48,585 nt of DNA from Gammaproteobacteria bacterium (lineage in GTDB: Bacteria > Pseudomonadota > Gammaproteobacteria > CAIRSR01). Location: contig CAUYTW010000011.1 in assembly GCA_963575715.1 (NCBI GenBank), positions 1-48,585 of the forward strand. Direction: 5' to 3'. Positions 42,261 through 44,605 of this stretch are shown in pieces. The stretch's first letter is position 1. Each line of letters starts with the position of its first letter. The position numbers and the translations under genes are program-made. Under the pieces are notes generated by a model. It was not told the DNA's origin. It saw nothing but the letters and a program-made list of their open reading frames with translations, and made no database searches.

Positions 42261-43001
42261 ATGGATCGTATGCTTTATGTCGCCATGTCCGGAGCAAAGC
42301 AGATAATGCAGGCCCAGGAGGCGAATAACAATAACCTGGCTAATGTAAGTACCACTGGATTTCGCGCCGACCTTGATCAGTTTCGTGCGATGCCGGTTTT
42401 TGGGGTGGTATATCCCAGCCGGGTTTATTCCATGAGCGAACGCCCCGGTATTGATTTTACTCCTGGCCCAATTATCACTACTGACAACGATTTGAATGTA
42501 GCGATTCGTGGTGATGGATTCATTGCGGTCCAAGGCCCAGATGGTAATGAAGCATATACCCGCGCGGGTGATTTTACCTTGGGGACGGGGGGAGTACTGA
42601 CCACCGGGGCGGGTCATTACGTGATGGGTAATAAAGGTCCAATTTCTATCCCTCCCTATGAAAAAATTGAAATCGCCAAGGATGGAACTATTACCATTCG
42701 CGCTTTGGGTCAGGCACCCAACGCCATGGTGGTTCTGGATCGGATTAAACTAGTTAATCCTCCCGTGGCTCAAATGAAAAAAGGATTGGATGGCTTATTT
42801 CATCTTCAGGATGGCTCGGATGCCCCTCCCGATGCCAAGGTGACTGTTGAGCCACGGGCGGTCGAAAGTAGCAATACCAATCCGGTCGAGGCTTTGGTAA
42901 CCATGATTAATCATCAGCGCCAATATGAAATGCAGGTAAAAATGATGCGCAGCGCCGAGGACAACGCGACAACCGCATCGAAATTGTTACAGCTTCAATA
43001 A
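42261..43001 (+). CDS. flgF: Flagellar proximal rod protein FlgF
   Basis: This 246-residue rod protein has the FlgF-type N-terminus MDRMLYVAMSGAKQIMQAQ, the [17 protein letters not shown] motif, the IRGDGFIAVQGPDGNEAYTR core (abbreviated) and the C-terminal SSNTNPVEALVTMINHQRQYEMQ (shown in part). GGAG lies 7 bases before the ATG. In typical clusters flgG follows directly; here an unrelated nuclease-like gene and 175 bp of AT-rich DNA intervene. Confidence 0.96.
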   Translation: MDRMLYVAMSGAKQIMQAQEANNNNLANVSTTGFRADLDQFRAMPVFGVVYPSRVYSMSERPGIDFTPGPIITTDNDLNVAIRGDGFIAVQGPDGNEAYTRAGDFTLGTGGVLTTGAGHYVMGNKGPISIPPYEKIEIAKDGTITIRALGQAPNAMVVLDRIKLVNPPVAQMKKGLDGLFHLQDGSDAPPDAKVTVEPRAVESSNTNPVEALVTMINHQRQYEMQVKMMRSAEDNATTASKLLQLQ

Positions 43002-43035
43002 GACGCTCAATAGTAATTTTTGGAGATTTTCGCTA

Positions 43036-43644
43036 ATGAAGTGCGCAAAAAAAACATCCTATGGCAGCATGTCGGTAGAGGATGTTCAGCGGAAATTCAA
43101 TATTACCTTTAACCTGCAAACGATTTTTGAACCCTTGCCAGTAGTCGCGCCCTCCGACATTTTGAAAAGCGCCCTACGACGTGCCTCCGGTCTGGCCCTG
43201 TTTAGTGAAAAATCACGATCAGAATTTATTGTGGCACCAATTTTGCTTGAAGTTAGAGAGTTAGCTCAGGAAATCATCTCGATTTATTCCGGCGTGACTT
43301 TTGATGTTTCTCCCGAGGAAGGCTTGCAGGGCATTTGTGATTTTTTGATTACTCAATCACCACCCTTGCCAACCATTCAAGCACCGATAATCATGCTCGT
43401 CGAGGCAAAAAAAAATGATATTGAAACGGGGCTTGGTCAATGCGCGGCGGAAATGATCGCCGCGCAACGTGTGAATCAACGTAATAATTATGAGCAACCA
43501 TACATTTATGGCTGTGTGACTAGCGGAGAATTATGGCAATTTTTACGACTGAAAAATACTCGACTGGACATTGACTCTGAAAAATTATATATCGAACATC
43601 TGGATAGGATTTTAGGGTTTTTTCTAAAAATAATTAAGGGATAA
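43036..43644 (+). CDS. PD-(D/E)XK nuclease-like protein inserted in the flg cluster
   Basis: This 202-residue protein is unrelated to flagella. A core resembling PD-(D/E)XK nucleases is visible: Glu in the helix APILLEVRE (E72), D102 in GICDFLI, and E123-x-K125 in MLVEAKKND, followed by GLGQCAAEM and YGCVTSGELWQFL. I recall similar small proteins with the phrases VEAKK, GLGQC and VTxGExWQFL scattered in cyanobacteria and sulfur bacteria, mostly of unknown role. A real nuclease activity is inference. It has its own GGAG 10 bases before the ATG, is in the same direction as flg and would be co-transcribed. AT-rich flanks suggest insertion. Confidence 0.65.
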   Translation: MKCAKKTSYGSMSVEDVQRKFNITFNLQTIFEPLPVVAPSDILKSALRRASGLALFSEKSRSEFIVAPILLEVRELAQEIISIYSGVTFDVSPEEGLQGICDFLITQSPPLPTIQAPIIMLVEAKKNDIETGLGQCAAEMIAAQRVNQRNNYEQPYIYGCVTSGELWQFLRLKNTRLDIDSEKLYIEHLDRILGFFLKIIKG

Positions 43645-43819
43645 ATCAAGAAGCAAGATGTTGCTGAAAAATATAGAAAAAATTGCTCAGGCAGATTATG
43701 TTAGGTTTCAGGCATCATAAAAAAGAAAATATACTTAATATGCTGAAAATTAAAAAGTATGCTGTAATCAAGTCACGATATCCAGAATCAAGATTTCAAT
43801 ATTTTTCAGGAGTAAAAAA

Positions 43820-44605
43820 ATGAATCGCGCACTATGGATTGCAAAAACCGGCCTGGACGCGCAGCAAACGCGCATGGCGGTGGTATCCAACAATCTGGCC
43901 AATGTCAGTACCTCGGGTTTCAAAAAAGGTCGAGCAGTATTCGAGGATCTGCTTTATCAGAATATCCGTCAACCCGGTGCCCAATCATCGCAAAATACTA
44001 TTTTGCCTTCGGGACTTTCGCTGGGAGTTGGAGTGCGCACCGTGGCGACGGAAAAATTATTCAGTCAGGGAAACCTTCAATTAACTGAGAATTCACTGGA
44101 TGTAGCGATTGATGGCCATGGCTTTTTACAAATTCTGCTTCCCGATGGAAGTATCGGTTATACTCGTGATGGCGCTTTTCAGCTAGATAATCAAGGGCAA
44201 ATAGTAACTGCCAATGGTTTGTTATTGCAGCCGCAGATTTCTATTCCTGCTGGAGCACAGAGCATTACCATTGGCAAGGACGGTACCGTGTCCGCCCAGG
44301 TTCCTGGACAGGTCGCCAGCCAGCAGATTGGCACTATTGAAATTGCCGATTTTGTGAATCCGACTGGGTTGCAAGCCGTCGGCGATAACATATTTCTGGA
44401 AACCGCCGCTAGTGGCGCTCCGCAAACCGGCACTCCGGGGCTGAATGGAATGGGTAGCCTGATTCAAGGATTCGTGGAAAGTTCTAACGTCAACGTGGTT
44501 GAAGAAATGGTGAACATGATCGAGACCCAGCGGGCCTATGAAATGAACTCCAAAGCGGTTTCGACTACCGATCAAATGCTTGGCTACCTTGCGAGCAATG
44601 TTTGA
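43820..44605 (+). CDS. flgG: Flagellar distal rod protein FlgG
   Basis: This 261-residue distal rod protein has family signatures [44 protein letters not shown] (given in the family as LDAQQTRM, [12 protein letters not shown] and FEDLLYQ), [15 protein letters not shown] and the C-terminal [25 protein letters not shown] (in part). AGGAG lies 7 bases before the ATG. It is a normal size. The 175-bp gap upstream (43645-43819) is AT-rich with no recognised promoter. Downstream, flgH should follow but is absent; a 39-bp leader-repeat remnant and flgI come next. Confidence 0.97.

Follow-up and report, generated by a model that had tools for sequence, protein, structure and literature searches.

Stand-alone nucleases occurring in many copies per genome have been described for the Rpn family, of which strains of Bacillus thuringiensis carry between 0 and 26 copies; Rpn genes are horizontally mobile, though not self-mobile, some have defence genes as neighbours, and they act against phages (PMC10327210). 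A feature of Rpn is a variable C-terminal domain that is made separately as an antitoxin, and no counterpart of this was noticed in the family described below. In phage T4 the seg and mob genes encode free-standing homing endonucleases and are located between conserved genes, several of them as promoterless cassettes (PMC2988022). Furthermore, the PD-(D/E)XK nuclease core is present in the type IIG enzymes BpuSI and DrdV and in HsdR, and Uma2 (DUF820) is also a small stand-alone restriction-endonuclease-like family. Here we report a family of predicted stand-alone PD-(D/E)XK nucleases, one member of which is encoded within the flagellar rod operon of a gammaproteobacterium. The family resembles Rpn in being stand-alone, horizontally mobile and present in many copies per genome, and T4 seg/mob in that single genes are found in junctions of conserved genes; T4 seg/mob differ in having GIY-YIG or HNH folds, in residing in phage genomes and in that their homing has been proven by experiment. 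The literature that we searched gave no description of a nuclease family with an intact active site that reaches up to 30 copies and shifts among core operons.

The window, i.e. the whole stretch of 48,585 nucleotides that was analysed, carries an open reading frame of 202 codons with an ATG start between flgF and flgG, all three being co-oriented. The features of this region are:

42261..43001, + strand: flgF (proximal rod protein), open reading frame aligning at 74-83% with flgF of three relatives (G001-G003)
43002..43035, + strand: 34-nt gap with the ribosome-binding site GGAG (43022-43025), read from the sequence
43036..43644, + strand: predicted stand-alone PD-(D/E)XK nuclease gene, 202 aa, PADLOC PDLC01472 (open reading frame; E 1.7e-50; pLDDT 95.4)
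43222..43224, + strand: codon for E63, the conserved helix glutamate of the predicted active site (E in 116/126 members)
43339..43341, + strand: codon for D102, the predicted catalytic Asp (D in 122/126 members)
43402..43410, + strand: codons for E123-A-K125, the (D/E)XK motif (E in 125/126 and K in 123/126 members)
43645..43819, + strand: AT-rich 3' gap (28% GC) ahead of flgG, single-copy in the window genome and unmatched in four relatives
43820..44605, + strand: flgG (distal rod protein), open reading frame with 79-82% identity to flgG of G001-G003

The entire flgF-flgG junction, 43002-43819 (818 nt), is the span to which the original prediction referred, and its description of the gene was borne out: the 202-residue frame runs in the operon direction, has its own ribosome site (GGAG ten bases upstream of the ATG), encodes the phrases VEAKK, GLGQC and VTSGELWQFL, and is flanked by AT-rich DNA (35% GC in the 34-nt 5' gap and 28% in the 175-nt 3' gap, compared to 49% for the window). 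The nuclease gene is likely to be co-transcribed with its flg neighbours, since between it and them no terminator or promoter scored higher than in the shuffled background. The 175-nt 3' flank was considered as an element end and rejected on the basis of being single-copy and unmatched in relatives, and the single match to an RNA family near the gene was sub-threshold and ascribed to chance. A simple repeat scan gave no CRISPR array in the window.

In searches against Pfam, NCBIfam and PDB sequences the window protein had no match. A human signalling protein that came up with HMMER at E 0.088 and 1.3 was dismissed as chance. The PADLOC profile PDLC01472 ('PD_DExK', CAS-associated) matches residues 57-200 of the window protein (E 1.7e-50) and all 76 aligned members, and omits the first 56 residues, which belong to the fold. 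The family is without a name in Pfam or NCBIfam and is carried in PADLOC as PDLC01472. That the open reading frame is more than chance follows from the 76 full-length relatives that align to the window protein and from the dN/dS values of orthologues of its sister copies (0.04-0.10). Moreover, in the family alignment of 126 members the D102, E123 and K125 positions, originally named as PD-(D/E)XK residues, are genuine family positions (kept in 122, 125 and 123 members, respectively), as is E63 (116 members). Most open frames comprise approximately 200-230 residues, so members are predicted to be usually single-domain proteins, unlike the BpuSI, DrdV and HsdR nuclease domains, which are fused to methylase, specificity or motor domains. 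The family also differs from Rpn, since a Pfam Rpn/PDDEXK_2-type model is absent among all 25 families matched by any of the 76 members (E up to 1), and from Uma2, the Pfam model of which none of the 76 members matches. On some plasmids the family match overlaps or adjoins an annotated Uma2 gene.

The AlphaFold2 model of the window protein (pLDDT 95.4, pTM 0.92) recovers the nuclease core for which structure prediction had been suggested as a check: among the top fold matches were BpuSI (Z 12.9 over 141 residues), DrdV (11.6) and HsdR (10.2), each through its nuclease domain, and a DUF820 structure gave Z 7.5. On the model, the window protein has the PD-(D/E)XK nuclease fold and retains the complete E63/D102/E123/K125 site. 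The best fold matches among those listed are mitochondrial-ribosome chains (Z 13-15 over 192-200 of the 202 residues, from residue 1 or 2), which we take to be mL37 and mL65, the residue numbering being consistent with these names. The values were Z 15.2 (mL37) and 14.2 (mL65) for the window protein, and for a second member (22% identity to the window protein; model pLDDT 90.7) 16.0 and 14.3, followed by 13.4 for BpuSI and 12.0 for DrdV, i.e. the same order for both modelled members. The restriction-type nuclease domains match only from about residue 36-53 on, whereas mL37 and mL65 align also with the N-terminal 35-50 residues that these domains lack; the fold shared with mL37/mL65 is thus full-length, N-terminal elements included. 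In contrast to the predicted nucleases of the family, mL37 and mL65 are ribosomal proteins; a review describes the two in the animal mitoribosome as a pseudo-dimer of repurposed endonucleases (PMC8998825). Since their sequence identity to the family is only 5-12% and the family profile gave no match to mL37/mL65 when searched against PDB chains with HMMER, we propose solely as a hypothesis, and a rather doubtful one, that animals derived the pair from this bacterial family; jointly with it, and just as tentatively, the tandem divergent bacterial copies would be a precedent for the pseudo-dimer.

The window genome has nine copies according to the protein search and a tenth detected with the profile, these copies being divergent from each other, and its congener (G001) has ten. 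Thirteen further carriers, spanning planctomycetes, cyanobacteria, Bacteroidota, Competibacteraceae, Poribacteria and Desulfonema, have 3-30 family matches each, some of them broken; no copy was present in 14 control genomes. The original description as a scattered single-gene family of unknown role agrees with these multi-copy, dispersed single genes. Within the class sample only three of the 37 genomes carry the family, and other genera are almost without it. It occurs on cyanobacterial plasmids, and phage records and viral contigs gave no relative, which speaks against the suggestion of a phage moron. In the phylogenetic tree a Competibacteraceae copy is the partner of the flg copy (100/94), which is placed near planctomycetes and apart from the paralogues of its own genome, these being themselves dispersed. 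A Saprospiraceae MAG has a tandem of four divergent family genes (L052:1466-4235). Most of the genomes are draft MAGs, in which contig joins at repeated genes may be wrong; the flgF-flgG and infB-rbfA sites are located on contigs of 49 and 60 kb.

A simple ORF script served to call the neighbouring genes, some of which were named by visual inspection. Sites in the window genome include flgF-flgG, infB-rbfA, cheR-cheW, after ppx, and between a pilin and a hypB-like gene, and those in the congener fabH-fabD, after yidC, after folP, after speD, beside hisC, and between DrmMI-like and DrmD-like genes. As read from neighbour sequences, one copy lies at sufB-sufC (L056), the closest relative (L011) has a precorrin methylase gene and cbiG as neighbours, and copies in other genomes lie beside lysS, dnaG, proS and argH. 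No recurrent partner gene, antitoxin or methylase was found next to the copies, the repeated neighbour families being confined to a few loci and apparently either vertically inherited or from very common families, and no shared end sequence or flanking motif was seen around 38 copies. Between co-oriented neighbours 41 copies are sense and three antisense, with approximately 87% sense expected from the local background, and the sense bias is not clearly beyond that of ordinary genes.

The flgF-flgG junction could be measured in 16 other members of the class, and none of these carries the nuclease gene there. It is short in 13 of them and has another insert in three (a TA-like remnant and inverted-repeat inserts); its length is 64-69 nt in two genomes of the same family and 10-100 nt in most others. 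In the congener the junction is 390 nt (L108; G001:C190, 5331-5720) and includes a DUF2281-like antitoxin frame (E 9e-5, below the Pfam cut-off) together with a PIN-like remnant recognised by eye, and in two other genomes inverted-repeat inserts are present in junctions of 240 and 559 nt. The space between flgF and flgG is a slot for insertions, and among these inserts (L108, L085, L077) we noted REP-like inverted repeats in G015 and, in G024, a small insert with an inverted repeat. Similarly, infB-rbfA is 675 nt in the window genome compared to 20, 29 and 117 nt in three relatives. The 117-nt junction (L140), that of G001, has a hairpin-like insert where the window genome holds the nuclease gene.

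No copy in the window genome has a neighbouring gene in common with any congener copy, and no junction is shared. Two pairs, L094/L103 (82% amino acid identity) and L095/L104 (75%), are orthologous between the congeners and located at unrelated sites; their DNA is similar from the ATG onwards, and the congener has the flanking genes elsewhere, without the nuclease. Their dN/dS values are 0.038 and 0.100, compared to 0.039 for flgG. For L094/L103, dN (0.095) and dS (2.5) equal those of flgG (0.105 and 2.7), and this pair hence appears to be as old as the species split and under strong purifying selection. In two Hormoscilla genomes, the relocated pair L179/L180 (89.6%) is alike only over the ORF plus 2 nt ahead of the ATG and 1 nt past the stop codon, and for another relocated pair, L142/L151 (87.5%), the similarity takes in approximately 65 nt upstream. 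We also noted for L179, L180 and L161 that the relocated copy has just the ORF, and no flank, in common with its source; conversion between older copies is a possible explanation for such apparent movement of a bare ORF. The L147/L173 pair, considered as an ORF-exact relocation, was discounted since the left flank is in common, its edges being a left sequence difference and, on the right, a transposase-like element at the stop codon; L144/L152 is identical over 3.8 kb and uninformative with respect to single-gene movement. In Hormoscilla GUM202 (L173:1380-3049) a PIN-toxin-like frame is broken just 5' of the nuclease gene, the stop codon of which the transposase-like element abuts.

Some copies are situated in defence loci. 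In cyanobacterial type III CRISPR loci we found the arrangements csm3/cas7-nuclease-nuclease-csx1 (L050:771-5659) and csm5-cas6-nuclease-csx1 (L059:1030-5834), and in a third cyanobacterial locus three copies adjoin cas2 and a repeat array (L048:192-3342). The cyanobacterial CRISPR-locus copies are often tandem. One congener copy is flanked by genes for a DrmMI-like methylase and a DrmD-like helicase (L107:1788-8290), possibly representing a DISARM-type system. Of the earlier suggestion of a defence gene, what stands is that a few copies adjoin defence genes; most do not, and the suggestion is possible, if unproven.

The reading that we favour, and to which we give an even chance, is that the family comprises conserved, relocating stand-alone PD-(D/E)XK nucleases lodged in host operons and probably directed against foreign DNA, comparable to Rpn. 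Members would move as single genes between genomes and between sites within a genome, and would lodge mostly in sense in junctions of co-oriented host genes, bringing their own ribosome site and probably being read from the host promoter, for the window copy by read-through from the flg promoter, the flgF-flgG site as such being incidental. The protein would be a catalytically competent endonuclease, its most likely role being to cut foreign (phage or plasmid) DNA, and some cyanobacterial copies may have been recruited into type III CRISPR loci. We favour a role against foreign DNA because of the parallel to Rpn, the location of some copies in CRISPR or DISARM-like loci and the upkeep by selection. 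However, the neighbours are mostly housekeeping genes, unlike those of typical defence genes in islands, there is no recurring partner, antitoxin or methylase, and the sense orientation is not clearly above the ordinary-gene level; the long-term purifying selection would equally fit a host function, and the CRISPR link may represent one more operon type that was entered.

The main rival, which we consider unlikely, is a homing-like selfish gene, where the nuclease cuts a conserved gene or junction lacking the copy and repair copies the gene in. The anatomy is that of T4 seg/mob, i.e. intergenic, sense, no promoter seen and within conserved operons (PMC2988022), and both the switching of sites between the congeners and the ORF-only relocation in Hormoscilla are in keeping with it. 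The congeners, however, have no junction in common although empty flgF-flgG and infB-rbfA junctions exist, there is no conserved end or flanking motif, the family is absent from the phages searched, and orthologues were under strong selection throughout the separation of the two species. Less probable still is a housekeeping DNA-repair or RNA-processing nuclease with genes scattered by happenstance: purifying selection of about flgG strength and intact active sites in copies from several phyla would suit such a role, but not the restriction to 3 of the 37 genomes sampled from the class, the 3-30 divergent copies per carrier, or the complete site turnover between the congeners. For a dedicated CRISPR-associated nuclease, as the PADLOC label would imply, speak the match of PDLC01472 to all 76 members and the three cyanobacterial loci in type III or cas2/array settings; we hold this to be improbable, given that the CRISPR-linked copies are only part of the tree, that the genes seen next to the window gene include no cas gene, and that in neither the window genome nor its congener did the sequence surrounding the copies, read over at most 10 kb, contain a CRISPR array. 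Finally, a gene serving motility, or timed by it, fits the place and strand within the rod operon and is otherwise very improbable, with the gene missing from the junction in the 16 other genomes and the family also residing in translation, chemotaxis, lipid, Suf, cobalamin and CRISPR operons; because this multi-copy family occupies such unrelated operons, the gene probably has nothing to do with swimming, and the flagellar cargo originally proposed was not upheld.

These data have a bearing on annotation, since the CRISPR-associated label of PDLC01472 can fall on genes without CRISPR context, as for the window gene, which matches the profile but is located in the flg operon, CRISPR contexts being confined to copies in other genomes. 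With respect to mL37 and mL65, the literature says no more than that they are repurposed endonucleases; the family offers a named candidate from which these two animal-specific ribosomal proteins may have arisen. Lastly, having entered core operons such as flg, infB-rbfA, fab and suf, the family represents a test case for defence cargo versus homing-like selfishness in bacterial chromosomes.
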